From: a virus
IMG/VR virus record: IMGVR_UViG_3300008259_000103
Span: 1 to 35,126 of that record
Reading direction: 5' to 3' (one strand)
Length of the DNA: 35,126 nt
The stretch's first letter is position 1. Each line of letters opens with the position of its first letter. The position numbers were made by a program, and so were the translations under genes. Shown piece by piece: positions 1 to 35,126 of the stretch. The notes beneath the pieces are model-generated. The model saw nothing but the letters and a program-made list of their open reading frames with translations. It did not search any database and was not told where the DNA came from.

Positions 1-1204
1 TTATCAGATAGGAGACCGCGTTTGGTACAATGGCAGCGTGTATAGTTGCATTGCAAATAACGATGGTATCAATCCAAGCAATCCTGCATACTGGACACTT
101 GTAGCTGTTGGATACAGATTGCGTCAAACACCTGTGGATTGGAACGCTACCACAGGCGACTATCAGATATTGAACAAACCTACTATACCTGCTGCACAGG
201 TTAACAGCGATTGGAATGCAGTAAGTGGTGTTGCGCAGATATTGAATAAGCCAATACTTGCAGCAGTTGCTACATCGGGCGATTACAATGACTTAATCAA
301 TCAGCCATCAATACCAAGCAACCTTGATGACTTAGCTGATGTGAATGCGCCTACTCCATCCAACGGGCAGGTGTTAACGTGGAATGGCTCGCAATGGGTT
401 AATAGCACACCGGCAACCGGGGGCACCGTCACAAGTGTAGGTTTAACGATGCCGAGCGCTTTTGCTGTTACAGGTTCGCCAGTTACGACGGCGGGAACGT
501 TGGCCGTAACGGGTGCGGGGACAACTAGCCAATACGTTCGGGGCGATGGCACTCTCGCCAATTTCCCCGCAATGGGCGGAGGTGGCGGGCAAGTATTTTA
601 TTTTAATGGCAATATCTCTCAGGGCACAATAGGCGGGACGGCCTTTTATGAATTAGGAACGGCGGCGAATACAGGGCCAGCGGCTAACTTTACTCGAGCG
701 ACAACGGGCGTTATTGCGAGTTTTATAACGGACGTTGGCGAGCCGAATCATTTGATAATTCCCTCTGGCCTTTGGATTATTGATGTTTATTTGAGCGAAA
801 CGGGAGGCGGTTCTAATAACGCCGAAATAATCGCGGTTTTAAAAATTTACAACGGCGCAACGTTCACCACGATAGCGAGCTCACCACTTGAGCAAATAAC
901 AAACGGAAACGTGCCCGACCTTTACACGTTCGCCATATCAGTACCCAACACGGTAACGGCGGCAACCGATCGCGTTGTTATTGAGTTCGATATTCAAAAC
1001 ACAAACGGAAAAACGGTTACCCTTTACACTGAGGACGGTCGAATCGGTGAGGTACATACTACTTATGCGATTGGGCTCAGCTCGTTGAATGGATTAACAG
1101 CAAACACTCAAACGTTCGCCACGGGTACGGCGGGCACTGATTTCGGTATTAACTCGGCGGGGTCGGTGCACACTTTTAATTTGCCCACGGCCTCGGCTTC
1201 AAAT
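1..1204. repeat. Terminal homologous segment, left copy
   Basis: These bases align to 33923-35126 over their full length with no net insertion or deletion. The stretch 212-317 matches 34134-34239 with a single mismatch that I can see. From about 420 onward the two copies keep the protein sequence but differ at most third codon positions. Both ends code for the same part of a tail fibre. The exact colinearity fits either two alleles of one locus at the ends of a circular assembly or two tandem fibre genes. Confidence 0.9.
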
Positions 1205-1792
1205 CGAGGTGCTCTTTCAAGTGCTGATTGGGCGACGTTCAATAATAAACAAAACTCAATCGGTTTAACGACGGTTGGAACTAACCTCGCAACGTTGCCC
1301 GACCCGAGCGCCATTAGGTATATACGCATTAACGCCAACAACACAGTCACAGCAATATCACTTGCCGACCTTAAGACAGAACTTGGTCTTGGCACACTTG
1401 TCAGCACTTCTAATCAAGCTACAAGTGGCACAGCATGGCAGGATATTACTGGTTTGACATTTCCGGTTACGGCAGGCAAGACATACAAGTGGCGTGCAAC
1501 GGTGGCGTATACAATAACAAGCGGTAACATCAACTTTGCGATCAGTGGACCGACGCTTGATTTCACTCGCTATCGTTTTACGGCAGCCGCAACGGGTACG
1601 ACGAATTTCGTAAACAATCAAACGAGTTATGATACCGGGACGCTCGTTGCTGGCGTGAATGGATGCGCCACGAGTGATGGAGTTATTAAGGTGTCTGCAA
1701 GTGGAACCGTTGCCATGAGAATGCGATCAAGTGTAGGTGGTGCTTTGACATCGCTGGCTGGTTCTGTTCTTGAGTGGGAGGAGGTGCTATAA
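2..1792 (+). CDS. Tail fibre / receptor-binding-type protein, 5' truncated by window edge
   Basis: The frame is open from base 2, so the true start lies outside the left edge. The GTG at 38 is internal, because the homologous right-end copy continues far upstream. The protein is low-complexity, Gly/Thr/Ser/Asn-rich and beta-type. It holds fibre repeats such as DWNATTGDYQILNKPTI and SGDYNDLINQPSIP, then a Gly-rich hinge (about nt 570-590), a jelly-roll-like section and a second fibre motif RGALSSADWATFNNKQ. The last 150 residues look like a small globular tip. The gene ends TAATG into the tail completion gene at 1792. Bases about 420-1320 use many NCG codons, unlike the flanks and unlike the homologous copy at the other end. 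Role in host adhesion is inferred from architecture and position. Confidence 0.85.
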   Translation, partial: YQIGDRVWYNGSVYSCIANNDGINPSNPAYWTLVAVGYRLRQTPVDWNATTGDYQILNKPTIPAAQVNSDWNAVSGVAQILNKPILAAVATSGDYNDLINQPSIPSNLDDLADVNAPTPSNGQVLTWNGSQWVNSTPATGGTVTSVGLTMPSAFAVTGSPVTTAGTLAVTGAGTTSQYVRGDGTLANFPAMGGGGGQVFYFNGNISQGTIGGTAFYELGTAANTGPAANFTRATTGVIASFITDVGEPNHLIIPSGLWIIDVYLSETGGGSNNAEIIAVLKIYNGATFTTIASSPLEQITNGNVPDLYTFAISVPNTVTAATDRVVIEFDIQNTNGKTVTLYTEDGRIGEVHTTYAIGLSSLNGLTANTQTFATGTAGTDFGINSAGSVHTFNLPTASASNRGALSSADWATFNNKQNSIGLTTVGTNLATLPDPSAIRYIRINANNTVTAISLADLKTELGLGTLVSTSNQATSGTAWQDITGLTFPVTAGKTYKWRATVAYTITSGNINFAISGPTLDFTRYRFTAAATGTTNFVNNQTSYDTGTLVAGVNGCATSDGVIKVSASGTVAMRMRSSVGGALTSLAGSVLEWEEVL

Positions 1793-2415
1793 TGGCAAGG
1801 CCTGTTGAATATGGTCCTCTTTATGACCTTCTCGATGATTTCGGGAAGGGAGTGGTCGAGAGTGCTCAGTCGAACTTGCGAATCTTGCGTCGCATCGGTG
1901 GCAAGCAACGCCGTCGTGTTGCATCTCGCAATCTCCTAAATTCGCTCGCCTTTGCAGTCAAGCGCAAAGGTAAGACATCTTCGCTTTTATTCTTTGCAAA
2001 GGGAAGTGCTGATGTTTATGCAGACTTTATTGAGCAGGGTGTTAATGGAACTGAAAAGAACCAGAACTCTCCTTACAGCTTTCGCAAAGGCAGGATACCT
2101 TTCAATCCAATATATGAATGGGTCAAGATCAAAGGAATCAAGCCCAGAAATGTTGACGACCCAAACCGGATGAAGCGCTCGCAGTTCACCAGCGCAGGCA
2201 GGGAGTCAAAGAAGCGAGGAAAGGAAGTAACGCAAGAAGACCTGCTGCGCCAGATGGCAGCACGCATGGCAGTGAGCATTGCACGAAAAGGTATTACAGG
2301 TATTCACTACTTCGAGGAGGCAATTGAGACGGAGCTTGACAAGCGCGGCGAGGCGTTCAATGAAATGGTTGAGCGCATCATTGAGGACATAATCAACAAA
2401 CGAAACAAGAAATAG
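1792..2415 (+). CDS. HK97 gp10-like tail completion / neck protein
   Basis: This is a 207-residue basic protein starting MARPVEYGPLYDLLDDFGKG. I chose ATG 1792 because it overlaps the fibre stop (TAATG) and has a strong purine-rich site, gggaggaggt, just upstream; an in-frame GTG at 1774 is less likely. A helical N-terminus is followed by a central segment with YADFIEQGVNG and PYSFRKGRIPFNPIYEWVK and a C-terminal helix. That pattern (YA.F.E.G...., then a P/W region) is typical of HK97 gp10-type tail completion proteins, which sit at the head-tail or tail-end interface. Assignment rests on motif resemblance only. It lies between the fibre and the tail-tip genes, an uncommon place for this family. 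Confidence 0.55.
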   Translation: MARPVEYGPLYDLLDDFGKGVVESAQSNLRILRRIGGKQRRRVASRNLLNSLAFAVKRKGKTSSLLFFAKGSADVYADFIEQGVNGTEKNQNSPYSFRKGRIPFNPIYEWVKIKGIKPRNVDDPNRMKRSQFTSAGRESKKRGKEVTQEDLLRQMAARMAVSIARKGITGIHYFEEAIETELDKRGEAFNEMVERIIEDIINKRNKK

Positions 2416-3711
2416 ATGGCCATCACAATACAAGATCAACCTAACGCATGGAGCCCACGAGGTCAGCGTCTTATATTCTATATGACGAGCGACAATAGTA
2501 CGCAGACAGGATTCAGAATGCAGGCTACCGTTACCGTCACAAGTACGTCAGAGGTGTATACATTTATGCTTTCATTAGACCCGAACACAGGAGTAATATA
2601 CGACCTCGGCAGTCTGGTGAGCTTGCGTAATTATGAAGAAACTGCGAATATACACGCAGCGGTTGATGAAATTGATGAGCCTACTGGTTCTGCTTTTGAT
2701 TTGTACACGGTTATCTTTGAAGAGTTTTGGATTGTAGGTGGCGTGCTTACTGCTTCTGGAATAACAAGTGATCCTGTCACAATTTGTGTTGTTAACGGAT
2801 ATTACCAAATGCGCAATGGATACAAGCCAAACGCAAATCTTGGAAGCATCGATGTAAAGTATGCGCTCACAAACTTCACGAATTCTCGTGCGATGAGTGA
2901 CCGATATGCAGCAACGCATACATGGACAATGAAGAATTCAGCTCTTGCCGCACCAGTAAATGCAAATACAATCTTCATTCCTGTGCGCGAGGCCGATTAT
3001 GGTTTGTTATATATTCCCGGCAATGATGCCTACCTGCCAGCAAATAACGTCGCTAAGTTTCGCATTACAATTTATGACAGCGCTGGATCAACTCACACAT
3101 ATACAAGTGGAACCATCACAGGCTACACAATAACAGGATTGGGTGTGTATCCTGCAAACATAAACGATAGCATCATTATCACGGAAAAGCCTAGTATGTA
3201 TCCGGGGTGGAGATATTATGTAGTCGCAATTTTGGATGCCTCAAACGTCACAAGATGTGCGCCGTATGTCTTTTACAATACCGAGCTTTATGGTCAATGG
3301 GACTGCCGCTATACACCGGTGCGTCTTGCTTGGGTTAACTCACGCAGTGGCTGGGACTATTTTAACTTCATAAAGAAAAATGAAATTACAAATAGCATTG
3401 AGCGTAAGCAGTACAAACAAACACGATGGCGTGGGGAGTCACCCTTCTATATCTCCAGCGACCGGGTGTTAACAGACCGAGACACTATTGTGACGCAGAC
3501 GCTTACTATTACCTCCGACTGGATTCAAGAGGAGGAGTATATATTCCTGCGTGGGCTGATTGTGTCAAATCAAGTCCAGATAGTGCAGGACAGTGGTATC
3601 TCAATACCTGTAAGCATAGAAGATACCGAGTTCCTTGAGAGAAAAGAGCGAAACGGGAAGCTCTATAATATTGTGCTTAAGATTAAATATTCACAAGACT
3701 ACTGGACATGA
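2416..3711 (+). CDS. Tail tip / distal-tail-type structural protein
   Basis: The protein has 431 residues, starting MAITIQDQPNAWSPRGQRLI directly after the previous stop. It is beta-rich throughout with many Tyr, Thr and Trp residues and no membrane segment. The C-terminal third has a run with KYKQTRWRGESPFYISSDR followed by a stretch rich in charged and aromatic residues, resembling Bacteroidetes phage tail proteins found beside the hub gene. It overlaps the next gene by ATGA. Together with the 960-aa gene downstream it probably forms the distal tail. A Dit-like role is an inference from neighbours; I cannot name a domain with certainty. Confidence 0.5.
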   Translation: MAITIQDQPNAWSPRGQRLIFYMTSDNSTQTGFRMQATVTVTSTSEVYTFMLSLDPNTGVIYDLGSLVSLRNYEETANIHAAVDEIDEPTGSAFDLYTVIFEEFWIVGGVLTASGITSDPVTICVVNGYYQMRNGYKPNANLGSIDVKYALTNFTNSRAMSDRYAATHTWTMKNSALAAPVNANTIFIPVREADYGLLYIPGNDAYLPANNVAKFRITIYDSAGSTHTYTSGTITGYTITGLGVYPANINDSIIITEKPSMYPGWRYYVVAILDASNVTRCAPYVFYNTELYGQWDCRYTPVRLAWVNSRSGWDYFNFIKKNEITNSIERKQYKQTRWRGESPFYISSDRVLTDRDTIVTQTLTITSDWIQEEEYIFLRGLIVSNQVQIVQDSGISIPVSIEDTEFLERKERNGKLYNIVLKIKYSQDYWT

Positions 3712-3911
3712 GATATGATGTCGAACTTATAGTAAGCGCTGGAGGCACTAGCTTCGTCAATAGTGGACCTTATACAACGGCCTTTAACCCTACAGGTGGC
3801 ACCGTTGCAAATATTGCAGATATTGGTAATCCTCCTGCTAACCTTATTACCATTGGTACTATCATCACAGGTCCTAATGGTGGTTTAGTTACTACATCTA
3901 CTGTTGCTTGA
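3708..3911 (+). CDS. Small tail-tip-associated protein (67 aa), unknown
   Basis: The start ATG overlaps the previous stop (ATGA) and the stop TGA overlaps the start of the 960-aa gene, so it is translationally coupled on both sides. The protein is MRYDVELIVSAGG followed by a Gly/Pro/Thr/Asn-rich, beta-type sequence without Cys or membrane segments. I do not recognise the family. The position suggests a minor tail component or a coupling peptide for the hub gene. Confidence 0.55.
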   Translation: MRYDVELIVSAGGTSFVNSGPYTTAFNPTGGTVANIADIGNPPANLITIGTIITGPNGGLVTTSTVA

Positions 3912-6786
3912 GCTTTATGAGAACGAAGTCATCAGTCAGAACTGGCGCTTCTCTGACCTGCAAACATTTGCTGCGCTCGGTTCATTTTCACGGCAGTTTC
4001 GAGTGCCTGCAACAAAGCGCAATTTGATGGCGCTCGGATATCTTCCAGATGTAAACTTTAAAGCTGAGACGGACTACTTTCAGACAAAACTCACAGCAGA
4101 GCTGCGTGTTCAAACTTTACCAATAGCTATCGGATACATCCGAGTAATGAGAGTAATTACTCAGGCTGAAAAGCTCGCTGACTTTGAGTTGACCTTCTAC
4201 GCCGAAAGCCCTGACCTATTCAATAAAATTGCAGGCAAGAAGCTCAAGGACATTGCTGCGCTCAATGATTTAAATGCTCCACTCGACTATAACGAGGTCA
4301 TTAACGCGACCGGATATCCATACCTTTATTCCTTAACTGATTATGGGCAAAAGTGGGACCAGAGCGGTGCTCAAAATGCTCGCAGCATATACGCCACAAG
4401 TATCGGTACTGCTCCACGAGCTGGAGACCTGACACCTTCTCTCAATTGGCAGTGGATATTTTCAAAGATACTTGAAGAGGCAGGATTCACATACACAGCC
4501 GTTGACCTCGACAATGTACTCAACCAATACTATGCACCATGGATTAATAGCAAGCAACTTGTATACACACAAAACGTTCAGAGCTTTATATTTAGGTTCT
4601 ATAATGCCACACCGCTTGCGATGAACACCACACAGCAGGCACTTGCAAGTGTGACTGAAAACTTTGACAACGGAAGCACTGTATCGAGCGGTGTGTTTAC
4701 AGCTCCGATCACAGGCCTCTATACTTTTCGTTATTGGTATACATTTAACAGCCCCAACTCAATGAGTGGGCTGTTCACTGTCTACTACAATAATATCACA
4801 ACTGGAGCAGTAGTGGCCATGAACTCAAGCGCAGTATTCAGTGGTGACAATAACTTCGATAGTGCCAATGGTGCGCCATACTTTTTTCTTGCAGCTGGTG
4901 ACCAATTTCAGCTTTTATATCAAGCTCCTGCTGCCACAATAACACTTAAAGCTGGCACAGCATATAACACAGGAACTGGTGTTGAGCTAATCGACGCAAA
5001 CTTTATGGATGGGCTGACTCTGAACTGGTCAGCAAATGCTCCAGACATGACGCAGTCTGATTTCATGCGTGATGTTTTAAATATGCACTGCTGTGTTATT
5101 GTTCCAGATCGTGGAACCCCAAATGCAGTAATCATTCAAAATATATCGGATTATGTTGGAACCGGGTCAGATAGAGATTGGAGTTCCAAACTTGATATTT
5201 CCAAAGATATTACACTAAGCAACACGAGTGATTTTCAAAATAAGCAACTCAAATTCACATACTCGGAAGGCGAGGATGTGGCATCTAAGATTTACTCAGG
5301 TTTAAATCGCATCTATGGTGACTACAAGATTGACAACTATACCGTTAGTGTAAACGACGTGCCGAATGATTTCGCTAGCGATTCAGAACAACAGATTCAA
5401 TTAATTACGCAATCAACTCCAAGTAACTATATTAAAGGCACCTCTATAGTTATACCCAAGTTCATCGATGAGAATGGAGATTTCGTAAGCCCCAAAATGC
5501 GGTGTCTTTTCCATGCTGGTGATTATGAGATGAGCTTGTATGATTTTGCGACCTTTACCGCAGACACTTCTTTTGTGGTTCCGGTCTTAAATCATTATGA
5601 ACTCATTGTGCCACTGTTCTCCTCTCGTGACCTGAACTGGGCGCCAGAGGTTCCCTTGTATACAATCGGAGCGATACCGTACAAAACTTTATTTAATGAG
5701 TACTGGCGCGACTATTTAAACCAGTTGTACTCACCTCAAGCCCGTATCATGGAGGCGTACTTTGCGCTTGATTTAGGAGACATCTTGAGCTTTAAGTTCA
5801 GTGACCGCATTTGGGTTAAAGATGCGTGGTGGAGAATTCTTGACATTAATGACTACAAAGTGGGCAGCTCAGATGTAACACAAGTACGGCTGCTTAAAAT
5901 TATTGATGCAGTACCAGAGGCACAGGCAGAGCCAGATGATATTGCCGACAACGGTGTGGTTTCATTTATTGATGGAAACGGTGACCCGGTAGGAGCGACG
6001 CAAGAAACCTGTGAGCGCTTCGGTTATTTTTGGGACCCTGTGACAAGCACCTGCTATGGTTTTACAACTACACCACAAATACCACCAGCCCCAGTTGATG
6101 AGCGCATTGGCAGCAGCTCAAATGAAATTAGCAATTCTATTAATAGCATTGTAATGACCGAGCGCCTAAATAATGATGCGTCAAACACCTACACGATTGC
6201 AGTGGGTTCGGATATTAAAATGGATGCAGGCAACACATCGAGCATTGCAGTAGGTGAAAAACTCATTATGGAAGGAACTGGCGGCGTCTCGATGTTTGGG
6301 CGCAATGTATACTCAAAAGTCAGCGGTCAGCATCTCGGCGGTGGTTATCTTAATAATATTCCTGCAACCAGCCCAGAGGGTTACGCTCAAAGTGGTGTTG
6401 TGATGTATCAAAGCAAGCAAGCATTTGCTGCTGCTGGACAATACTTTTTATTTATTAACGGCGTTAATGGTGAGCACCTTGATCTACCGGATGACACATG
6501 CTGGAGCTGCATCCTGAATTACACAATACAAGACGATAACTTTACAGGCAACTATGAAACAGGACAATTGAGCTTTGCACTGATTAAGTCGGGAGGTGTG
6601 GCTGCGGTAAGCGCAATAACTCCTCTAAATGTCATCGGTGGAATCGGTGCTTATATTTTTGGCATCGCCGTCAATGTTGCAGTGCCAAATCTTCACCGCC
6701 TATATTACACGGTCGGAGGTGCACCATTCCCGGACACTTTTCATGTTACAGCTTCACTCATATACACTCAATCAAAAATATCATGA
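3904..6786 (+). CDS. Large tail tip / baseplate hub-like protein (960 aa)
   Basis: No ATG is available near the 5' end: the frame is closed by TAG at 3886, and only TTG 3904 (or CTG 3901) can start it, both inside the end of the 67-aa gene. The N-terminus LELYENEVISQNWRFSDL, then GSFSRQFRVPATKRN, matches a motif I associate with Bacteroidetes phage tail-tip proteins. A long beta-rich central part follows, with SQSDFMRDVLNMH-like and WVKDAWWRILDINDYKVGSS segments that resemble hub or Tal proteins. Residues after about 690 change to a Cys-containing linker (TCERFGYFWD, TCYGF) and a fibre-like tail. It is probably the structural hub at the tail end. Coupling to the upstream ORF likely drives initiation. 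Function is inferred, not proven by a catalytic motif. Confidence 0.6.
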   Translation: MLELYENEVISQNWRFSDLQTFAALGSFSRQFRVPATKRNLMALGYLPDVNFKAETDYFQTKLTAELRVQTLPIAIGYIRVMRVITQAEKLADFELTFYAESPDLFNKIAGKKLKDIAALNDLNAPLDYNEVINATGYPYLYSLTDYGQKWDQSGAQNARSIYATSIGTAPRAGDLTPSLNWQWIFSKILEEAGFTYTAVDLDNVLNQYYAPWINSKQLVYTQNVQSFIFRFYNATPLAMNTTQQALASVTENFDNGSTVSSGVFTAPITGLYTFRYWYTFNSPNSMSGLFTVYYNNITTGAVVAMNSSAVFSGDNNFDSANGAPYFFLAAGDQFQLLYQAPAATITLKAGTAYNTGTGVELIDANFMDGLTLNWSANAPDMTQSDFMRDVLNMHCCVIVPDRGTPNAVIIQNISDYVGTGSDRDWSSKLDISKDITLSNTSDFQNKQLKFTYSEGEDVASKIYSGLNRIYGDYKIDNYTVSVNDVPNDFASDSEQQIQLITQSTPSNYIKGTSIVIPKFIDENGDFVSPKMRCLFHAGDYEMSLYDFATFTADTSFVVPVLNHYELIVPLFSSRDLNWAPEVPLYTIGAIPYKTLFNEYWRDYLNQLYSPQARIMEAYFALDLGDILSFKFSDRIWVKDAWWRILDINDYKVGSSDVTQVRLLKIIDAVPEAQAEPDDIADNGVVSFIDGNGDPVGATQETCERFGYFWDPVTSTCYGFTTTPQIPPAPVDERIGSSSNEISNSINSIVMTERLNNDASNTYTIAVGSDIKMDAGNTSSIAVGEKLIMEGTGGVSMFGRNVYSKVSGQHLGGGYLNNIPATSPEGYAQSGVVMYQSKQAFAAAGQYFLFINGVNGEHLDLPDDTCWSCILNYTIQDDNFTGNYETGQLSFALIKSGGVAAVSAITPLNVIGGIGAYIFGIAVNVAVPNLHRLYYTVGGAPFPDTFHVTASLIYTQSKIS

Positions 6787-6959
6787 CCCAAAATACCATT
6801 ACACCACTACTGATTCTGCTGCGCTCAGGATATAAATCTAACACAGATAGATATCGTCTCAAAGGATGGCGTCGTTTATTATATCACATTATTAAGTATG
6901 GAATCGTGGCCTTGCCATGGTCTATTATTATAATACTTACCTTCTTATACTTCAGATAA
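6783..6959 (+). CDS. Small membrane protein (58 aa) between hub and tape measure
   Basis: Reading from ATG 6783 (ATGA overlap with the hub stop) gives a 58-residue protein that ends TAATG into the tape measure gene. The N-terminal 35 residues are basic (LKGWRRLLYH). They are followed by one hydrophobic segment, IVALPWSIIIILTFLYF, ending in Arg-stop. This predicts a single C-terminal membrane anchor. Tight overlaps on both sides support it as a real gene. Its role is unknown. It could sit in the host membrane during assembly or be a small virion component linked to tape measure ejection. Confidence 0.65.
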   Translation: MTQNTITPLLILLRSGYKSNTDRYRLKGWRRLLYHIIKYGIVALPWSIIIILTFLYFR

Positions 6960-9457
6960 TGGCAAAGAAGATTGTTCTTGAGCTCGAAACCAAAGCAGAC
7001 GGCACGATAGGTACACTTGACCAGATAGCATCAGGTCTTAATCGTGTGTCCGATGCTGAGAAGAAAGTCGCCGACAATACAAAAGATGTGTCTGAGCAGC
7101 TTGCAAAGTTACGCGAGCAAATATCTCAGACTGATGTTAATAGTGATCAATATAAAGAGCTGACAGAGCAGTACAAAAAACTGGGTGGTTCTCTCACGGA
7201 TTTAGTTCCAAAAACTGCAAACCTAAAGCAGGAACAGCGTGAACTTCGCAAAGCATTACTTGCTGGACAAGAAGCACTTGGCACTGAAAAATACACTCAG
7301 CTTACGCAGCGGCTTGGTGAGGTCAATGATCAACTCAAAGATATAGCCGAGGCCGCAGGTCAAAACGCAGGTCCACCACTTGAAAATCTGAGCAATATTG
7401 CAGGTGGTTTGGGTTCTCGTTTGGAGAATCTTGATTTTGAAGGGCTGAACCAAGATTTACGCAACATTGCAGGAAATGTCAAGAACTTCTCGTTCAAAGG
7501 AATAGTAGATGGTATCAAGGATTTGAAGTCTGGGTTTATTTCTTTGGGCCAAGCATTACTTGCAAATCCTATATTTGCGGTTGCAGCGGCCATTGCTGCC
7601 ATTGCTCTTGCGGCTAAAGCATTTATTGATTCGGAACGTGAAAATGTCACGAAATTAAATGAACAGCTGGATAAAAGCGCAGCACGCAGAAAAGATTCAG
7701 AGCGGCTAGCATTTGCTCAAGCAGAAGGCAACACAAAGAAAATTACCGAGTTAAAGCTGCAATCAAATGCACAAGACCTCTCCGACACGCGCACTAAAAT
7801 TAATAGACTCGTTAATTTACAGAAGGAGTACTTTGGGCTTAGTGAGGAGCAGGAGCAGGAGCTTGCCGAATTGCGAGACAAATACAGGTCTCAAGAAATT
7901 GACCGGGAACTAATCAAAATTGAAACTTTAAATGCACTCAATGCTAAGCGCATCGATATTAATGCAGAGTTTGAGCAACGCAATCTAAATGAACGCCAGA
8001 AGGCAGAGGCACAACTTACTAATGAATTTAAGCGCCAGCAGGAAGAGTTAACTAAACTTGGAGGGACTGCGGAGGATTTTGAGAAACTGGACGAGATATT
8101 TGCCGCTCGCTTTCGAGATTTGCGTAAGGGATTTGCTGATGCGGACAAAGCTGCGTCACAATCTAAAGCAGATGCAGCAAAGTCACGGCGCGAGGCAGAG
8201 CTTGCCGCACAGCAGTCCGTGATTGATGCCATTAAGCAAGCTCAGAAAGAATTCGAATCCTTAACGAAAACTGCTCAGGAAAATGAACTGGCTGCGGTTG
8301 CTGACAAATATAAACAACTCAAGGAGCAGGCAGAGAAAGCAAAAGTTGACACTGCTCAAATTATCGAACTACAAGGCAAAGAGGAAGATGCCATTCGCAA
8401 AAAGTATGCGAAGCAAACCTTAGATTTAAGCAAGCAGGCTAAAGAAGATCAGCTCGCAATTGTCGAAGCGCTTGTTTTGGAAAATGAAAACATTCGTAAA
8501 GGCGCAAGGCAAGCTGAGCTGGATGCATTAGGCGAGGAGTATTTTGAAAAAATAACTTTACTCGAAAATGAAGGAAAGGATGCAACAGCATTGCGTGAAG
8601 AATGGGAGAAAAAGCGCAAAGAAATTATAAATAAGTATGCGCAAGATGAGGTTGAAAAAGAAAAAGAACGCCAGCAGGCAGTACTTACCGCTCAAAACGC
8701 TGGACTTAATTCTCGTCAGCAAGCGCTGAACAATGATCTGGCTGCACTGAAGGCTGACTATGACGCCCGGATTGCTCTGGCGAAGAAGTATGGGCAGGAT
8801 GTGTCTGCATTAGAAGCGGAGTATCAAGATGCAGTAAAGATTAAGAGAATACAAGCAGCAGCTGAGACCGTTCAAGTTTGGGGAGACACAGCCAGCAAAG
8901 CACTCGATGCGTTAAGCTCTATTAATCAAGCTAAAGCAGAAGAACTGGGTCAAAAACTAAACAGCCTCGACAAAGAAATAGAACGTGCTCGCACAAAAGA
9001 GCAGCGTGCAGAACTTATCAAGCGACGCAAAGCGCTGGAAGAGGAGCAGCGCAAGGTGTTTGAGCGCAACAAGAAAGCGCAAATTGCTCAGACACTTATT
9101 ACTACATTGACATCAGCAACTGCTGCATTTGCCTCTCAATTAATACCCGGTGATCCAACAAGTGTAATTCGAGGCGCTGTTGCCGCAGCTGCTGCCATAG
9201 CATCTGGTTATGCTAATGTTCAGAAAATTAAGCAAACTCAATTTGAAGCTTCAACACCTCCTGCAAGCTCTGACATTCCAGATATTGCTGGTGGAGGCGG
9301 TGGAACTGAAACCACTGCTCCGCAGTTTAACCCACTTGTTCTTGACTTTTTGAAAAATAGACCAGAGCAGCAGTTGCCTCGCGCTTATGTGCTGGCAGGT
9401 GATGTTGAGAAGGCAGCACAGGCGCGTGATAGGGTGGAGGAGCTGGCTCGATTATAA
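6959..9457 (+). CDS. Tail tape measure protein
   Basis: This 832-residue protein is very rich in Ala, Lys, Glu and Gln and is mostly predicted coiled coil. I chose ATG 6959 (MAKKIVLELETKADGTI) because it overlaps the upstream stop. A longer frame from 6917 would add a hydrophobic leader that belongs to the 58-aa gene in another frame. A hydrophobic segment at about residues 202-222 (NPIFAVAAAIAAIALAAKAF) and an Ala-rich region near the C-terminus (GAVAAAAAIASGYANV) are typical of tape measures, which span the tail tube and enter the host envelope. At about 0.15 nm per residue the tail would be near 125 nm. No lysozyme or peptidase motif is visible. Confidence 0.9.
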   Translation: MAKKIVLELETKADGTIGTLDQIASGLNRVSDAEKKVADNTKDVSEQLAKLREQISQTDVNSDQYKELTEQYKKLGGSLTDLVPKTANLKQEQRELRKALLAGQEALGTEKYTQLTQRLGEVNDQLKDIAEAAGQNAGPPLENLSNIAGGLGSRLENLDFEGLNQDLRNIAGNVKNFSFKGIVDGIKDLKSGFISLGQALLANPIFAVAAAIAAIALAAKAFIDSERENVTKLNEQLDKSAARRKDSERLAFAQAEGNTKKITELKLQSNAQDLSDTRTKINRLVNLQKEYFGLSEEQEQELAELRDKYRSQEIDRELIKIETLNALNAKRIDINAEFEQRNLNERQKAEAQLTNEFKRQQEELTKLGGTAEDFEKLDEIFAARFRDLRKGFADADKAASQSKADAAKSRREAELAAQQSVIDAIKQAQKEFESLTKTAQENELAAVADKYKQLKEQAEKAKVDTAQIIELQGKEEDAIRKKYAKQTLDLSKQAKEDQLAIVEALVLENENIRKGARQAELDALGEEYFEKITLLENEGKDATALREEWEKKRKEIINKYAQDEVEKEKERQQAVLTAQNAGLNSRQQALNNDLAALKADYDARIALAKKYGQDVSALEAEYQDAVKIKRIQAAAETVQVWGDTASKALDALSSINQAKAEELGQKLNSLDKEIERARTKEQRAELIKRRKALEEEQRKVFERNKKAQIAQTLITTLTSATAAFASQLIPGDPTSVIRGAVAAAAAIASGYANVQKIKQTQFEASTPPASSDIPDIAGGGGGTETTAPQFNPLVLDFLKNRPEQQLPRAYVLAGDVEKAAQARDRVEELARL

Positions 9458-9548: not shown

Positions 9549-10118
9549 ATGAAAGGTAAGAAAGTTTTAAAGTGTGTCATAGATGATAACATGAAACTTG
9601 GCGTGCAGGCTATCTCGCTCGTTGAGTTTCCAGCGATTGAGGAGAACTTCATTGCTTTATCGAGTGTAAAGTTAAGCGCCGTCAACACAGAGCGCCGCAT
9701 GCTGTATGGGCCTGCACTAATACCTGACAAATATATTTTACGTCTTGACAAAGAAACTAACGAAGAATACTACATATTTTTTGAAAAGGACACCGTGTAT
9801 AAATGTGCGCATCAATTTATGATGAAGAACCTACAGCACAAACATACAATGGAACACAAGTACGATCTTACCGGTTGCACACTTGTCGAGTCTTGGATTG
9901 TGGAAGGAGAGAATGATAAAAGCAGGCAGCTTGGCATCGACGTACCTGTTGGCACTTGGATGGCTGGCACTTATGTTCAAGATGATGAAGTGTGGGAGCG
10001 AGTAAAAGATGGAAGTGTTCGTGGGTTTTCTATAGAGGGTGTTTTTGACAACGTGAGTACGGAGCTAAGCAAAGAGGACGTATTTGTCGAGGCGCTGATG
10101 CGTGCGTTAAGTGAATAA
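9549..10118 (+). CDS. XkdF-like prohead serine protease
   Basis: The 189-residue protein matches the XkdF phage protease family in layout. GPALIPDKYILR and EEYYIFFEKDTV are followed by HKHTMEHK (His103), VESWIVEGENDKS, VPVGTWMAG and the RGFSIEG motif with the probable catalytic Ser161. The family cleaves scaffold and capsid N-termini during prohead maturation. It stands 91 bases after the tape measure with an AT-rich leader and ends inside the stem region of a terminator at 10117-10144. The capsid and scaffold genes follow only after an inverted gene, so protease and substrate are separated by about 1.2 kb. Confidence 0.85.
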   Translation: MKGKKVLKCVIDDNMKLGVQAISLVEFPAIEENFIALSSVKLSAVNTERRMLYGPALIPDKYILRLDKETNEEYYIFFEKDTVYKCAHQFMMKNLQHKHTMEHKYDLTGCTLVESWIVEGENDKSRQLGIDVPVGTWMAGTYVQDDEVWERVKDGSVRGFSIEGVFDNVSTELSKEDVFVEALMRALSE

Positions 10119-10195: not shown

Positions 10196-11269
10196 TTAAA
10201 AATACTTTTCAATTCCGGTTTCGAGACTGTACTCTTTACCAACGTTCTCATTCTTGCCATTTGCAGGCATGAACTCCATGTATGCAATGATCTTTGCTTC
10301 CTCAGTTAGCGACGGATTGAATGTGAGTGTATGCGTAGCTGCGTCATAGCTATTTGTGCTGCCTGCCACGACGTTCAGTGTGCCATCGTTATTGATGGGC
10401 GCATTAAGTGTTGACCCGTACACGTTGTCCGTAGTGCCTCCAATGCGTGGCCCGTTATACAATCTCCACAACCACAAGTACCCGGTGTACTTTTGTCCAA
10501 AGCTATTTACTAGCGCTTGATAGTTGAAGGTGCGTGCGTCCTGTCCGTTGATATATACCACACTCTTCAGTTGTCCATCTTGAGGCTGCTCTATATCCAT
10601 AGCAATTGAAGTGATATGCGTGGTATTTGATACCTTCACGATGTTCCACTGGGTGCGAGAGTGGAACATAAGATCCTGCTCAGTCATGCCTGATAGTTTC
10701 ATGAACTCCGCACGGCGAAGACGGCGCTTAGGTGTAATTGCATACTTTGAGGTCCATACAGTGTACGGTTTGCCGTCAGCTCCCAGCTTAACTATGCGAG
10801 CTAAATATTGAGCGCGAATGAGTGGATCCTTCATGTCTTCAGCTTTGCCGTTGACAACTGTCTCGTATGGCTCGGTCATAAAGTCGATGGCTGCGGTCTG
10901 TGCGTCAACGTTGCGATATTTCACTGATGTCTTGCAGTAATATACACGTTGACCTGCCAATCCACTTGGTGGCTCATGCAAGACCCAAGAGCTCGGCTTG
11001 TCAAATACTACCTGAGTATCGTCTGCTGCTGTTATGGTGTGGCCAAAGTTGTAAAGCAAGTTGCTGGCATAGTTAAATGGATACATGCCAAAGGCTTGAG
11101 TGCTGCCGTTCATCTTCTCAACCTCATATCGGATAACCATAGATTTTCCGGTGTAATCATAGATTTCATATACACGCAGGCCGTATGTGGTGCGTGTTTG
11201 AACTTGTCCTTCGTAGGGTGCCAGCTCCGGTGGTAGTCCGAGCTGCTGGAGTGCTGTGGTTGTGCTCAT
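10196..11269 (-). CDS. Unknown 357-aa protein inverted within the virion operon
   Basis: This is a single long frame starting MSTTTALQQLGLPPELAPYE and ending KYF, flanked by its own hairpins at the 3' side and a 91-base gap to the scaffold gene at the 5' side. The first half is mixed alpha/beta with VYEIYDYTGKSMVIRYEVEK. The middle is basic (TPKRRLRRAEFMKLSGMTEQ). The C-terminal half is beta-type with aromatic clusters (YTGYLWLWRLYNGPR) and a Gly/Asn-rich region like virion or adhesin domains. No signal peptide, membrane segment or catalytic motif is evident. Opposite orientation and own terminators suggest a moron-type insertion or a separately timed gene. I do not recognise the family. Confidence 0.8.
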   Translation of the reverse strand: MSTTTALQQLGLPPELAPYEGQVQTRTTYGLRVYEIYDYTGKSMVIRYEVEKMNGSTQAFGMYPFNYASNLLYNFGHTITAADDTQVVFDKPSSWVLHEPPSGLAGQRVYYCKTSVKYRNVDAQTAAIDFMTEPYETVVNGKAEDMKDPLIRAQYLARIVKLGADGKPYTVWTSKYAITPKRRLRRAEFMKLSGMTEQDLMFHSRTQWNIVKVSNTTHITSIAMDIEQPQDGQLKSVVYINGQDARTFNYQALVNSFGQKYTGYLWLWRLYNGPRIGGTTDNVYGSTLNAPINNDGTLNVVAGSTNSYDAATHTLTFNPSLTEEAKIIAYMEFMPANGKNENVGKEYSLETGIEKYF

Positions 11270-11360: not shown

Positions 11361-11990
11361 ATGAAAGGACAGATTGCACAAAAAGTGCGCGACATCTTCC
11401 AGTCATTTAATATCAACCCGAAAGACATCTTTCTTGAAGAGGAAGAGGTGAAAATGGAGATTGAAGGCAAACTTGCCGACGGTACCATTATTTATTCGAG
11501 TGCTACTGAATGGGCTGCAAGTGCTGACGTGTACACAAAAGACGAAACAGGTAACGCCATCCCTGTTCCAGCTGGAGATTATACTCTTGATGACGGACGC
11601 ATGGTTGTTATCGGAGACGATTCTAAGATTGTAGAAATCAAGGAAGCTGAAATGGAGGTGGAAGACGAAGTTGAGGAAGAGATGTCAAGCGCAGACCTGC
11701 TCAAGACGATTGAGAGCTTGGGTGCTCGCATTTCTGCTCTTGAAAATGAAAAATCAGAAATGCTAAACCAAATGAGTGAGGTCAAAGTGGAAGCATTGAG
11801 CAAAGAGATTGAGTTGTCCGCAGTAAAACATGAGCTGCAAACAATAAAGCAATCTCCAGCAGTAGATAGCATTAAATCCAAGCGTAGTGAGGTAGCTCTT
11901 TCTCGCGACAACAAAGAAACTAAAGAAAAAACGTACTCTGCCATGACCGTGCAAGAGCGCGTGAATCAATACCTATCAAAAATAAAGTAA
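11361..11990 (+). CDS. Capsid scaffold-like protein
   Basis: The 209-residue protein sits 4 bases before the major capsid gene. Its N-terminal half (to about residue 90) contains LADGTIIYSSATEW and PVPAGDYTLDDGRMVVI, a beta-hairpin module I associate with capsid assembly proteins of Bacteroidetes phages. It continues into a strongly acidic patch (VEDEVEEEMS) and a coiled coil (about 108-160). The C-terminus is basic and ends VQERVNQYLSKIK, similar to the C-terminal helix-turn-helix of scaffolds that contacts the capsid protein. A scaffold role is inferred from position, acidity and coiled coil. It may be processed by the XkdF-like protease. Confidence 0.65.
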   Translation: MKGQIAQKVRDIFQSFNINPKDIFLEEEEVKMEIEGKLADGTIIYSSATEWAASADVYTKDETGNAIPVPAGDYTLDDGRMVVIGDDSKIVEIKEAEMEVEDEVEEEMSSADLLKTIESLGARISALENEKSEMLNQMSEVKVEALSKEIELSAVKHELQTIKQSPAVDSIKSKRSEVALSRDNKETKEKTYSAMTVQERVNQYLSKIK

Positions 11991-13586: not shown

Positions 13587-13976
13587 ATGATTTACCTACA
13601 AGCAAATACAGCGAACCAGTCGCTTTATCTCACGCTCGATGAGGCACGTCAATATTTCTCGACTGCCTTTACGCATTACTTGTTAATTATTATTCACGAG
13701 GAAAATAGTCCTGTCGGTGTATCTTTGGCTCAGGTGCTCGATGTGGTGAGTGAATCGCAGCGAGTAACCCATGTGCTCGTTGATACGACAGGATTAACAC
13801 AGGTCGGGCGTTATCGCTACGTAGTGTATGGTCAAAACTCGAGCACGAATGTAGACCCGTCGAATGCTTCGGTAGTAGGAGAATGTGAGCAGGGTCTGTG
13901 CACTATAACCGACGGCACACAATATTTTGATGTGCCATCAATAAACATAGACGACGATGTCATCTACAACGGATAA
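13587..13976 (+). CDS. Small structural protein (129 aa), unknown
   Basis: The frame starts MIYLQANTANQSLYLTLDEAR and ends DDDVIYNG, overlapping the portal start by 20 bases in another frame. It is a beta-rich soluble protein with a C-terminal Cys-containing part (VGECEQGLCTITDG). I recall similar short proteins beginning MIYLQ near capsid and portal genes of Bacteroidetes phages, but no defined function. Position suggests a head decoration or neck component. Confidence 0.6.
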   Translation: MIYLQANTANQSLYLTLDEARQYFSTAFTHYLLIIIHEENSPVGVSLAQVLDVVSESQRVTHVLVDTTGLTQVGRYRYVVYGQNSSTNVDPSNASVVGECEQGLCTITDGTQYFDVPSINIDDDVIYNG

Positions 13977-15771
13977 AGCGCTCAAGCTGGACTTGAGTCA
14001 GTACACACCAGTCAGCACATCCGAAAAAGTTGACCGCTCTGGGTGGGTCAACTTTGGAGCTGACAACCTGCTACCTGTATATATTACAGAACTTGCGCAG
14101 AGCTCTCCCATTCACGGGGCGCTTTGTATATCGATTAGCGACATGATTGCAGGAAAGGGTCTGCAGGCGGGTCAATATCAAAACCGCGTGGATGCGCTCA
14201 ACGTTTATGCAGCTTTTGAGGGATGTTCACGCGATTTAAAACTATACGGCGGATTCTACTTAGAGGTTATATACTCAGTTGATCGGAAAACACTGGCCAA
14301 GCTTAACCACATACCATTTGAGGAGTGTCGAATCGCTGTCGAGGGTGAGGATGAAGATGAGATTGGAATTTATCATAGCGCGGATTGGTCTCAGACGCGC
14401 AAGAAGAAAAACAAACCTCTTCTTATTCCAAAGTTTAACCCAAACACTGCTATCGATGAGCCTCGTCAGGTATACTGGTGCTTTGATTATACTGGGTCGC
14501 AGACATACCCAAAACCTGACTACTGGAGTGCGGTTAATTATATCGAGCTCAGCCGCCAGATAGGAATATTTCACGTGTCGAACATACTAAACGGCATGTT
14601 CCCCTCGACGATTATCTCGTTCTTTAATGGGGAGCAGGACGCGGACTCGATCCGTAAACTGCGCAACGATTACAACACGCACCTTGGCGCCGCCCATAAC
14701 AGCGGTAAGACCTTGTTTTTATTTAACGAACCGGGCGCACAGCCTCCGAAAGTTGAAGCATACCCACTCAGTGATGCCGACAAGCAGTATGAATACCTCA
14801 CAAATACATCCAGAACCGAGGTCATGTTGGCTCATCGTGTGACCACTCCGCTCATTTTTGGCATCCGGGGCGAGGGTGGTGGCTTTGGATCCAACAAAGA
14901 TGAGATGGTAATCGGTTTGGAAATCTTCACAAAGCAGGTAATTGAGCCAAAACAGCGCAAACTTTCTACTGGATTTGAGGAGGTTTTGAATTATGAAATG
15001 AAAGGTATCGAGCTAAAAGTGATACCAAACACTCCAATTACCACCGATAATGGAACGACCGCAACGCCAGTAGAGCCCCAAAAACCAACAGAAACGCCCC
15101 AACAAGCCCCTGTTTCGGTTCCAATGGCGCATGCCTTCGAAAAAAAAAAGCATGAACATCCTGAGGCGGTAGATATGACCGCCGACGATGCCAAGTATTG
15201 GCTTGAACGCCTGCAAAGTGCTGGGGAAGTAATCGATTTAGAGGAATGGGAGCTAGTTCACGAGGCTGAGGCACTGCGTGATAGTGAGATTGAGCGCCAG
15301 TTTTGCGAGAATCTTAAGGAATATGAGCTGGCTTCACTTAATAGTTATGCCGAGGAGGATAAGAAAAGCGCGTGGGGAGACCGGGGACTGTACAAGTTGC
15401 GCTACGCATATAGCCAGAACTTAACGGAAAACTCGCGAGAATTCTGCGTTGAGATGGTTCAGCTTTCTAAGAATGGCACCGTTTATCGCTATGAAGACAT
15501 CCAAGCAATGAGTGATGCTGGGGAGAACGGCCAGTTTGCACCCTCAGGCTCAAGTAGTTACGACATTTTCAAGTATGTCGGGGGGTGTTTTTGCCATCAC
15601 CATTGGAAACGGCAAATTTACTTTAGAAAACGCGAAAAAGGTAAATTCCTGCCGAATAAAGGATTGGAAAATGATAAACTTGTAGGCAATGTTCCCTACG
15701 TTAAAAAGAAAGGTATCGAAGGCGTGGCACCTATTGATCGCCCCGGTAGAGGATCACTAAAATATAAATAA
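13957..15771 (+). CDS. Portal protein with C-terminal MuF-like extension
   Basis: The 604-residue protein begins with a portal body (to about residue 350): GWVNFGADNLLPVYITELAQ, SPIHGALCISISDMIAGKG, LYGGFYLEVIYSVD, IPFEECR and a late part with LAHRVTTPLIFGIRGEGGGFGS. These fit the dodecameric vertex channel that docks the terminase. A Pro/Thr/Gln-rich linker (about 370-400) leads to an additional domain. It contains REFCVEMVQLS, YEDIQAMSD and GGCFCHHHWKRQIYFRK, which resembles the Cys/His signature near the C-terminus of MuF-type minor capsid proteins. Fusion of portal and MuF-like domain would explain why no separate MuF gene is present. The domain boundaries are estimated by eye. Confidence 0.8.
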   Translation: MSSTTDKALKLDLSQYTPVSTSEKVDRSGWVNFGADNLLPVYITELAQSSPIHGALCISISDMIAGKGLQAGQYQNRVDALNVYAAFEGCSRDLKLYGGFYLEVIYSVDRKTLAKLNHIPFEECRIAVEGEDEDEIGIYHSADWSQTRKKKNKPLLIPKFNPNTAIDEPRQVYWCFDYTGSQTYPKPDYWSAVNYIELSRQIGIFHVSNILNGMFPSTIISFFNGEQDADSIRKLRNDYNTHLGAAHNSGKTLFLFNEPGAQPPKVEAYPLSDADKQYEYLTNTSRTEVMLAHRVTTPLIFGIRGEGGGFGSNKDEMVIGLEIFTKQVIEPKQRKLSTGFEEVLNYEMKGIELKVIPNTPITTDNGTTATPVEPQKPTETPQQAPVSVPMAHAFEKKKHEHPEAVDMTADDAKYWLERLQSAGEVIDLEEWELVHEAEALRDSEIERQFCENLKEYELASLNSYAEEDKKSAWGDRGLYKLRYAYSQNLTENSREFCVEMVQLSKNGTVYRYEDIQAMSDAGENGQFAPSGSSSYDIFKYVGGCFCHHHWKRQIYFRKREKGKFLPNKGLENDKLVGNVPYVKKKGIEGVAPIDRPGRGSLKYK

Positions 15772-20614: not shown

Positions 20615-20883
20615 GGCTTCACCTCCTTCTCTTGTGGGGTCCACTTGACCTGCTCCTTCTTTAGATTTGCTATGACGGTTTGAATAATTAGCTCCTCGAG
20701 CACGTCAGAAAGTGGCTCTTCATTTGCCTCGTAGATTAGTGCTACGTCAAAACTCACGCTTCCATTTGTCGTTCGCATTAGCTCAAACTTCCAGTTGGTG
20801 CGGTCCGTGAGAGGTAGCGCCATTGTAATGCTTCCACAGAAGTACTCCGTGCGCTTGTGTGGTTTGGTGTCGATGTTTATCAT
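20611..20883 (-). CDS. Hypothetical protein (90 aa)
   Basis: It starts MINIDTKPHKRTEYFCGSIT and ends PQEKEVKP with the AAGGAGGTG site for the downstream PP-loop gene embedded in its last codons. ATGA overlap on both sides. Acidic and soluble, mixed beta then helix; unknown family. Confidence 0.6.
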   Translation of the reverse strand: MINIDTKPHKRTEYFCGSITMALPLTDRTNWKFELMRTTNGSVSFDVALIYEANEEPLSDVLEELIIQTVIANLKKEQVKWTPQEKEVKP

Positions 20884-23560: not shown

Positions 23561-23571
23561 GTGAAAAATAC

Positions 23572-23632
23572 GACCACCGCTCGCAATGGCGACCCCTTGC
23601 TCGAATGAACTCTGGCAAAGCGGCGGCGGTCT
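23572..23632. other. Imperfect inverted repeat in a 115-base non-coding gap
   Basis: gaccaccgctcgc at 23572-23584 can pair imperfectly with gcggcggcggtc at about 23620-23631. The gap between the loader-like gene and the exonuclease gene is the longest non-coding stretch inside the replication arm except the promoter region at 25901-26040. It could be a regulatory structure or part of an origin. I see no strong promoter in it. Confidence 0.3.
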
Positions 23633-27342: not shown

Positions 27343-27344
27343 TT

Positions 27345-32456: not shown

Positions 32457-33035
32457 ATGAAGTTACGCGTCCACATACCCGAGACGCTTGACGACGTGAC
32501 CCTTGGCACGTTCATCAAGTATCAAAACGCACGCACCGACTTGGAGCGCATCTGCGCATATACCGGGTTGAAGAAGAATCTGGTAGAGAACTGGACCTAC
32601 GACGCCGTGAACAAAGCACTGGAGTTGATAGGCCACAGCGTAAACAACTGCACGCCAATTCACCTACCGAAGTTCCGGATTGATGGCAAGCTGTTTGGCT
32701 TCGTCCCAGACATGGACCTGCTGACCATGAGGGAGCACGTCGACTCAGAGGCATGGGCCAGCGAAATCTGGAAGGCCGACGGCATGAACTGGACGCGCAT
32801 GCCCGAACTGATGGGTGTTCTGTTTCGTCCCGTGACTGCTCAGCTCGGAGACTACTACGACATCGAGAAATATAGCATGGAGTCAGCAAAGCGATACAAC
32901 GAAAGCTTGAAGCAAATGACTATGAGCCAAGTGCAAGGGGCGCTGGTTTTTTTTTCGACTATCGCAAGAGAATCAATAGTCGCTACACTGGAGGAGGAGC
33001 TGACGATGGAGCTGATGAGGATGGAGACGAGGTAG
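32457..33035 (+). CDS. Tail assembly chaperone, short form (gpG-like)
   Basis: The 192-residue protein starts MKLRVHIPETLDDVTLGTFI and has the helical layout of tail assembly chaperones: LTMREHVDSEAWASEIWKAD, MPELMGVLFRPVTAQLGDYY, YSMESAKRYNESLKQM. It ends shortly after a run of nine T at 32947-32955. The same run is a -1 slippery site leading to the longer product described below. It is normally placed directly before the tape measure gene; here it is before the fibre. Confidence 0.8.
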   Translation: MKLRVHIPETLDDVTLGTFIKYQNARTDLERICAYTGLKKNLVENWTYDAVNKALELIGHSVNNCTPIHLPKFRIDGKLFGFVPDMDLLTMREHVDSEAWASEIWKADGMNWTRMPELMGVLFRPVTAQLGDYYDIEKYSMESAKRYNESLKQMTMSQVQGALVFFSTIARESIVATLEEELTMELMRMETR

Positions 33036-33229
33036 GCACAACGCCTGAGGGACTTGCTCGGTATGGTTGGCTTCATGTGCTGGAGATATTAAGCGCTAAC
33101 GATGTGACGAAGTTCGATGCAGTACTCGACCGGAACATCTACGAGATATACACACACATGAGTTATATGCGTGATTATAACGCGATGAAACTCAGAGAAC
33201 TAAAACGAATACAGAGGCAGCATGTTTAA
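32457..33229 (+). CDS. Tail assembly chaperone, -1 frameshift form (gpGT-like)
   Basis: If the ribosome slips back one base on T_TTT_TTT (32948-32954), translation continues from 32954 in the -1 frame to TAA 33227-33229, giving about 257 residues. The added part begins FDYRKRINSRYTGGGADDGA (an acidic linker), then EGLARYGWLHVLEILSANDV and a helical end NAMKLRELKRIQRQHV. This T-like extension would recruit the tape measure in the way lambda gpGT does. The long open -1 frame, acidic linker and coupling to the fibre start at 33222 support it. Confidence 0.85.
32948..32954 (+). promoter_or_regulatory. -1 programmed frameshift slippery heptamer
   Basis: T TTT TTT in the zero frame of the chaperone gene. 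It is a canonical X XXY YYZ site, in the position seen for phage G/GT tail chaperone genes. Confidence 0.85.
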
Positions 33230-35126
33230 TCAGGTATCCTACAACGTCGTCATCGAACGCTTCAAAGTGTTTGCTGACGGTCATTTTATAATTCGACGCT
33301 TCTCTCATGGGCAGGTAGACGTCACCGATATAGACAAGGACCAGCTCTTCCCATGGATGCACGTCGCCCCGGTGGATGTTAAGCTGGAGACTGGTTCACG
33401 CGTTTACTCCTTTGATGTTATCTTTGCAGATATGCCTCGCGATAAGGAGGATGCCACTGACTACCAGCGTGAAGTCATTAGCGATTGCGTTCGTTTGTGT
33501 GAGGATCTTGTTAATGAGATTGCAAATGGAAGCACAGTCTTTGGTGAGGATGTAGAGCTTGAAGATGGCAGCACCATTACTCCATTCATTGCTGAATATA
33601 CTCATACTTTGTGTGGCGCTACCTTGTCGTTGAGTATTTCAGTGCCAAACGACTACTCTGCTTGCGATATACCCGCAGACTGGAGCATCGGTGGCAGTGG
33701 ATCAGCTACGCCACCATCACCTGCTGTTTCTCTTGTGCTAAAGGTGAATGGTGTGGACAACGTGGTTCAAAACGTGCTGGACGTGGAAGAAGGCACGAAC
33801 ATGACTATCACCGACCTCGGTGACGGACGTGTTCGTTTTGATAGTACTGGAGGAGGAGGTGGTTCCAGCCAGCTCTTGTGCACTGAGTTCAATGTCAACC
33901 ACCTCGCAGCTACAGGCAACCCTTACTTGGTTGGAGACCGGGTATTCTATAATGGCAACATCTACCGGTGCACTGCGCAGAATGACGCGATACTACCAAC
34001 AAACACATTATACTGGACGCTTGTCGGTGTGGGATTTCGTATACGTCAAGCGCCTGTGGATTGGAACGCTACTACAGGCGACTATCAGATATTAAACAAG
34101 CCAACTATACCTGCAGCGCAAGTAAACTCAGACTGGAATGCAGTAAGTGGTGTTGCGCAGATATTGAATAAGCCAACACTTGCAGCAGTTGCTACATCGG
34201 GCGATTACAATGACTTAATCAATCAGCCATCAATACCAAACAACCTTGATGACTTAGCGGATGTAAATGTGCCTACTCCATCAAATGGGCAGGTACTATC
34301 TTACAACGGCTCGCAATGGGTTAATAGCACACCGGCAACAGGAGGCACGGTTACTTCGGTAGGTCTATCAATGCCTTCAGCATTTAATGTTGCTAATTCA
34401 CCTGTGACTACTGCAGGAACATTGACGGTAACCGGTGCAGGTACCACAGATCAATATGTGCGTGGTGATGGTACTCTTGCTAACTTTCCCGCAACAGGTG
34501 GTGGAGGTGGGCAGGTTTTTTATTTCAATGGTAATGTATCTCAAGGTACGATAGGCGGTAATGATTACTATGAATTAGGCACAGCTGCAAACACAGGACC
34601 AGCGGCTAACTTCACCCGGGCAACAACAGGTGCAATAGCTCGATTCATTACTGATGTAGGTGAACCAAATCATTTGCTTATACCTGCGGGTGTATGGACT
34701 ATTGATGTGTACTTAAGTGAAACAGGTGGCGGTTCAAACCATGCACAAATACTTGCAAAGCTTTACACGTATAACGGCAGCACGTTCACATTGGTAGCTA
34801 CTTCCACTATGGAAGAAATCACCAATGGCAGCACACCTGATTTGTACACATTCACTATATCTGTACCAACAACTGTAACTGCTGCAACCGACCGCATACA
34901 TATTGAATTTGATATTCAAAACACGAATGGGAAGACTGTTACACTATACACTGAAGACGGCAAGATAGGTGAGATTCACACTACCTATGCTATCGGATTG
35001 TCTTCGCTTAACGGCCTAACTGCAAACACACAAACATTTGCAACAGGTACAACAGGTACTGACTTTGCTATTAACAGCGCAGGCAGTACGCATACATTTA
35101 ACCTGCCCACTGCAAGCGCAGCAAAT
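33222..35126 (+). CDS. Tail fibre with N-terminal tail-completion-like domain, 3' truncated by window edge
   Basis: ATG 33222 overlaps the -1 frame stop of the chaperone. The 635 codons run to the window edge without a stop. Residues 1 to about 110 (MFNQVSYNVVIERFKVFADG, then WMHVAPVDVKLETGSRVYSF and VISDCVRLCEDLVNEIANGS) resemble a short, separately encoded tail protein of Bacteroidetes phages. A linker with Pro/Ser and Gly runs leads to the fibre repeats, colinear with bases 2-1204. If joined at 33922 to base 1 the gene would have 830 residues. The same adhesion role as the left copy is inferred. Confidence 0.9.
   Translation, partial: MFNQVSYNVVIERFKVFADGHFIIRRFSHGQVDVTDIDKDQLFPWMHVAPVDVKLETGSRVYSFDVIFADMPRDKEDATDYQREVISDCVRLCEDLVNEIANGSTVFGEDVELEDGSTITPFIAEYTHTLCGATLSLSISVPNDYSACDIPADWSIGGSGSATPPSPAVSLVLKVNGVDNVVQNVLDVEEGTNMTITDLGDGRVRFDSTGGGGGSSQLLCTEFNVNHLAATGNPYLVGDRVFYNGNIYRCTAQNDAILPTNTLYWTLVGVGFRIRQAPVDWNATTGDYQILNKPTIPAAQVNSDWNAVSGVAQILNKPTLAAVATSGDYNDLINQPSIPNNLDDLADVNVPTPSNGQVLSYNGSQWVNSTPATGGTVTSVGLSMPSAFNVANSPVTTAGTLTVTGAGTTDQYVRGDGTLANFPATGGGGGQVFYFNGNVSQGTIGGNDYYELGTAANTGPAANFTRATTGAIARFITDVGEPNHLLIPAGVWTIDVYLSETGGGSNHAQILAKLYTYNGSTFTLVATSTMEEITNGSTPDLYTFTISVPTTVTAATDRIHIEFDIQNTNGKTVTLYTEDGKIGEIHTTYAIGLSSLNGLTANTQTFATGTTGTDFAINSAGSTHTFNLPTASAAN
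33923..35126. repeat. Terminal homologous segment, right copy
   Basis: Aligned end to end with 1-1204. About 64 of 401 residues differ by my count and no gap is needed. Codon choice in this copy is like that of the rest of the genome, whereas the left copy is CpG-rich from about 420. Confidence 0.9.

Follow-up and report, generated by a model that had tools for sequence, protein, structure and literature searches.

Probably one tail fibre gene in two forms: an uncultured phage contig whose ends carry divergent fibre copies and which is probably a composite of a mixed population

Do the two tail fibre fragments at opposite ends of one phage contig represent two forms of a single gene, or two adhesins encoded side by side? 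The window considered here, i.e., the whole stretch of DNA that was analysed, is the complete IMG/VR virus record IMGVR_UViG_3300008259_000103 (35,126 bases), and its source is an uncultured tailed phage. Along with DNA methylases, it encodes the following proteins:

6917-9457: tape measure
9549-10118: head maturation protease
13957-15771: portal
20880-21413, minus strand: NinG/Rap-family protein (Pfam, E 2e-48)
21597-22955, minus strand: DnaB helicase
26041-27342, minus strand: large terminase
32090-32431: small terminase

Also present is a PAPS reductase-like gene (phrog_424; 19790-20644, minus strand), of an auxiliary metabolic or a modification type. The two halves of phrog_24921 are matched by separate plus-strand genes, 9549-10118 and 11361-11990, and between them sits a minus-strand gene of unknown family (10196-11269); in the relative G040, the homologues of the 10196-11269 and 11361-11990 genes are adjacent. 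Another record, L235 (IMGVR_UViG_3300008450_007885), shares 4470 bases with window positions 23203-27672 at 99.9% identity and belongs to the same species. Among cultured phages, none was close to the window's fibre, and phage isolates gave short motif matches only.

The fibre is divided between the two ends as follows:

33222..35126, plus strand: fibre allele R, the 5' 635 codons, an open frame running off the right contig end (PHROG tail fiber protein phrog_9729, E 8e-18)
1..1792, plus strand: fibre allele L, the 3' 596 codons, open at the left contig end, with an open frame at 2..1792 (phrog_9729, E 9e-17)
33222..33922, plus strand: N-terminal domain, present in the right copy only; it starts the fibre in relatives, at 93% (L003) to about 47% identity
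33912..33983, plus strand: CBM5/12-like carbohydrate-binding motif of allele R (Pfam PF02839, E 2e-6, residues 231-254)
34074..34348, plus strand: linker island of allele R, with QILNKP-type repeats, nearly identical to the left copy and of low synonymous divergence
152..426, plus strand: linker island of allele L; the L-like/R-like switches of related phages lie in or beside it
34349..35126, plus strand: head module of allele R, its protein 99% identical to the L097 head (tree, AU test)
427..1204, plus strand: head module of allele L, nearest to L204 at 94% (tree), beta-rich in an AlphaFold2 model
1205..1792, plus strand: C-terminal part of allele L, with homology to L005 and others along its entire length
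32457..33035, plus strand: immediate upstream neighbour of the fibre, both here and in the relatives that span the locus
1774..2415, plus strand: immediate downstream neighbour of the fibre, both here and in the same spanning relatives

The N-terminal domain is presumably the part that attaches to the tail. The counterpart of the CBM5/12-like motif in allele L lies at approximately bases 1-60, and allele L aligns along its full length with the C-terminal portion of the L005 fibre. The right copy has nothing to set against the C-terminal part of allele L itself, as the contig stops before reaching it.

An initial annotation, made from the sequence alone, had proposed that the two ends are homologues aligning without gaps, and that joining base 33922 to base 1 restores an intact fibre gene. 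Both statements held. Bases 1-1204 align to 33923-35126 with 890 of 1204 positions identical (73.9% DNA identity), and the encoded proteins share 337 of 401 residues (84%) with 0 gaps and a score of 687 bits, far above chance. The 33922/1 join gives an in-frame fibre of 2493 bases, i.e., 830 amino acids plus a stop codon, with no internal stop; a direct 35126/1 join is out of frame, as had been claimed, and meets a stop 14 codons past the junction. That both segments are 1204 bases long is likewise correct, but it is not a separate coincidence and adds no evidence, since homology that runs off both contig ends forces equal lengths.

Identity between the ends is uneven. Across codons 151-400 of the shared region, 87 of 120 fourfold-degenerate sites differ (72%), and synonymous sites in the head are near saturation; across codons 51-125 only 8 of 34 such sites differ (24%), with exact runs of 62 and 43 nt, and the linker island also contains a run of 32 nt. 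Both copies are intact across the overlap and under purifying selection. The ends are thus diverged homologues with a recently shared island. Direct terminal repeats (terminal redundancy) were considered and rejected, as the two ends are 73.9% identical and not the same sequence.

The organization of the locus in relatives bears directly on the number of fibre genes. Relatives were fetched using the fibre N-terminus, the upstream gene, the two downstream genes, both allele regions, and the terminase, and a locus was counted as spanning when it took in the upstream gene (32457-33035), the downstream genes (1774-2415 and 2416-3711), and all that lies between. All 105 distinct spanning loci have a single fibre between the same flanking genes, and two N-terminal domains or two heads were seen in none of them. 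The distance from fibre start to the next gene ranges from 1989 to 3312 bases (median 2720), a size range that accommodates the composite 2493-base fibre of the window. At the far end of the gene, relatives fall into two classes. In one, the fibre and the following gene share 15-36 bases; the window belongs here, with an overlap of 19 bases between allele L and that gene. In the other, a gap of approximately 160-275 bases leaves enough room for a small extra gene. Such a gene, tied to certain C-termini, could possibly encode a chaperone or a cap.

For 35 near-complete relatives (28-36 kb), the two contig ends were also compared with each other. Exact end overlaps of 98-127 nt, such as a de Bruijn k-mer would leave, were found in nine (G015, G018, G020, G021, G027, G032, G042, G043, and G044), and these closures sit at different genes, scattered over the map; G021 closes inside its own fibre gene through 123 identical bases. 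The relatives are therefore circle-mapping, i.e., circularly permuted, and the window itself shows no exact closure. A further 13 of the 35 have inexact end overlaps of 53 nt to more than 2 kb at 92-99.6% identity, listed here with length and identity:

G006: 150 nt, 99.3%
G016: 176 nt, 98.9%
G019: 159 nt, 99.4%
G023: 111 nt, 95.5%
G026: 147 nt, 98.6%
G028: 206 nt, 93%
G029: more than 2 kb, 92-95%
G030: 429 nt, 94%
G031: 130 nt, 99.2%
G033: 53 nt, 96%
G034: 228 nt, 99.6%
G041: 585 nt, 92%
G045: 1095 nt, 93%

The natural reading of these inexact overlaps is strain mixtures in which the circle could not close, and the window is the extreme of the series, located within a highly variable gene. 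Its 74% DNA identity between ends lies far below the 92-99.6% of the others, and the two ends may thus derive from different phage species instead of different strains. The possibility that contigs break preferentially in the fibre was examined and dropped: ends of shorter relatives fall there at 22 per 181 kb, versus 23 per 167 kb on the mirror side, and the fibre is thus not a general assembly breaker. Several near-complete contigs do stop within the fibre or next to it (G001, G014, G021, G025, and G035), each with a gap or an exact closure and no second allele.

The histories of the two heads were reconstructed from a tree of 108 head modules. The allele R head falls in a five-member clade with that of L097 (99% identical; support 99/99), and the allele L head groups with L204 (94%), L191, and L202, with support of 99/85. 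Constraining the R and L heads to group together costs 73 lnL units (AU test, p-AU 0.0002). The heads are therefore not sisters, and the two copies do not stem from a recent tandem duplication.

The fibre as a whole is a mosaic. For example, L097 and L096 have an N-terminal domain that is 53% and a downstream gene that is 44% like those of the window, and their fibres nevertheless carry the allele L state at all 36 L/R differences within bases 1-100 of the shared region; from base 401 on, L097 carries the allele R state at 233 of 241 differences. Correspondingly, bases 1-100 of allele L differ from R at 36 positions and are identical to L097, and bases 1-177 are about 99% identical to it. L098, L099, and L100 are L-like to approximately base 360 and R-like beyond. 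In these phages of another genus, the start of allele L is fused to the head of allele R, and the switch points lie in or beside the conserved linker. In another example, L003 has a backbone 83-89% identical to the window in DNA, and the first 63 codons of its shared region are 90% identical to R before the sequence passes into another fibre. It is well shown, then, that fibre pieces have passed between phages with a mere 44-53% similarity in their other tail genes. Different heads on nearly the same backbone are also common: among 93 pairs with a 2416-3711 homologue at least 90% identical, 19 have heads less than 80% identical. Over 124 loci, which are not independent of one another, N-terminal and head identity to the window are uncorrelated (rho 0.01), placing this gene among modular tail fibres, in which a conserved N-terminus is joined to independently inherited distal domains. 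Taken together, the mosaics and the varied heads mark the two window alleles as two draws from a pool that recombines both within and between genera.

Three other accounts of the two ends can be weighed against this background. The annotation had offered a true tandem duplication of an adhesin as its alternative, with full fibres R and L following one another in that order and the contig broken between them. Such an arrangement would fit two copies that have each stayed intact across the overlap under purifying selection (84% protein and 74% DNA identity), but we consider it very unlikely. The absence of two fibres from all 105 spanning loci puts the frequency of such loci under about 3% (rule of three), and the space between fibre start and next gene gives room for one gene only. 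Moreover, as the heads are not closest kin, a second copy would have to be an import. Programmed switching within one genome, through invertible cassettes or a diversity-generating retroelement, might account for two forms that have a conserved linker in common and differ on both sides of it. It is extremely improbable, however, because the window has no inverted repeats of at least 30 nt and no match to a resolvase/invertase, reverse transcriptase, or integrase, so neither the enzymes nor the repeats of such a system were found; furthermore, the head differences are mostly synonymous, and near homologues of both alleles occur in other genera.

A cross-species chimera, in which the assembler took the left end (allele L, from base 1 to somewhere short of 1474) from a phage of another genus in the same sample, deserves more attention, since a contig of just such a kind exists. 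At positions 6541-6560 of L100 (IMGVR_UViG_3300008117_001533), a fibre of the L098 type meets, in a blunt and out-of-frame join, 1400 bases that are 99.8% identical to window 1474-2873; L100 is either a chimera or a broken recombinant, and the match means that the window's species occurs in that sample too. The near-identity of allele L bases 1-177 to L097, whose N-terminal domain is so unlike that of the window, points the same way, as does a second site within the window itself. There, the gene at 3708-6786, which is a single uninterrupted open frame in all distinct relatives (104 of 104), has its frame broken at 3906, directly after a 142-nt block that is 98.6% identical to L096/L099, from another genus. 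This break is either a misassembly or a real deletion. The gene is a second hypervariable tail gene, its first ~100 residues, between the motifs MNGEVQLIV and YLDLYENES, varying very strongly among relatives. (The notion that this domain and the fibre head travel together was discarded: among pairs with distant backbones, the domain is shared in 2% of those with shared heads versus 1-2% of those with unshared heads.) Against a chimeric left end, allele L is in frame from 2 to 1792 with whole-length homology to intact fibres, nothing closer than 94% to its head was found, and positions 1-1792 showed no blunt junction. On balance, we regard this origin as unlikely.

The best explanation, and a highly likely one, is a circle-mapping genome of approximately 33.9 kb (a size that assumes equal length of both alleles) with a single fibre gene, of which at least two alleles occurred on nearly the same backbone in the sample, such that closure failed. 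This was also the reading that the initial annotation preferred, and it agrees with the single-fibre synteny, the circular closures, and the inexact end overlaps of relatives; tandem duplication is disfavoured. Given L100 and the frame break at 3906, the window is probably a composite rather than the clean sequence of one genome, assembled from a mixed population in which both alleles presumably coexisted. In this scheme, the assembler would build the common backbone and run on into the fibre at each end, reaching allele R through the conserved N-terminal domain and allele L through its C-terminal part; since it would halt inside both alleles, the ends would overlap by 401 codons without matching. 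The left end starts right at the CBM-like motif; a simple graph branch would be expected to leave a k-mer overlap with the N-terminal domain, and none is present. Trimming, coverage, or a chimeric extension may lie behind this. The CBM5/12-like region, the repeat linker, and the beta-rich head would each come out of a pool to which other phage genera also have access, and the route that we infer for the mosaics is homologous recombination in and beside the conserved linker, which would reassort the fibre modules.

What the exchanged head may do is suggested by modelling. The head and C-terminal part of allele L were modelled together with AlphaFold2 using 69 sequences (mean pLDDT 83, pTM 0.48), yielding two beta-rich domains with a partly helical, low-confidence stretch between them. 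Foldseek searches with the model returned tail proteins of uncultured phages, the best at 68% identity, and, against the PDB, proteins with jelly-roll folds (tandem CBM22 and TNF, for example), all of them weak matches with low TM-scores over the model. From the CBM5/12 motif and the predicted fold, it is reasonable to suppose that the variable part of the fibre binds a surface glycan. The heads would then act in receptor binding, and their exchange would be expected to change host specificity. It is also possible, if on balance doubtful, that several aquatic phage genera share one pool of fibre pieces, with the ~90-codon repeat linker serving as a standing crossover region, and that modules are reassorted within species fast enough to maintain at least two fibre types per backbone as a population-level host-range polymorphism.

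In practical terms, a protein-level comparison of both ends, with mismatches allowed, is a simple check for virus contigs reported as “linear”. About a dozen nearly complete genomes of this group with inexact end overlaps are probably complete but unclosed. In addition, fibre genes, and any host predictions made from them, may be composites of two strains.

Both sides of this picture have counterparts in known systems. Strain variation fragments short-read viral assemblies, and hypervariable islands are missed, as described with VirION2 (PMC8018248) and with long reads from the Sargasso Sea (PMC11094077). As in those studies, mixtures of related variants block the resolution of genomes from short reads and variable regions suffer; unlike there, the failure in the window leaves a trace, in the form of two divergent copies of one locus at both ends of a nearly complete, circle-mapping contig. 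In lambdoid phages, mosaicism arises through relaxed homologous recombination, with Rap (formerly NinG) as an accessory that contributes to the mosaicism of lambda (PMC3945230). The window resembles these phages in its homology-driven mosaics and in encoding a NinG-family protein, and differs in that an Erf or RecT family recombinase was looked for in it and not found. Distantly related Alteromonas phages share tail fibres (PMC10579305), and there, as here, nearly identical fibre modules occur on divergent backbones; analysis of the window, by contrast, revealed no fibre chaperone, and what is shared is a set of segments within a gene instead of a unit of fibre plus chaperone. Finally, domain mosaicism is known in phage receptor-binding proteins (PMC10684548), where fibre domains have been shuffled recently, distal parts are swapped behind a conserved N-terminus, and exchange reaches across genera. 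The present case does not differ from it in principle; it concerns an uncultured phage group and has a repeat linker as the region of exchange. Both the trading of fibre parts and the effect of coexisting variants on assembly are thus already known and ordinary, and the window illustrates how freely such phages exchange the parts of their fibres.
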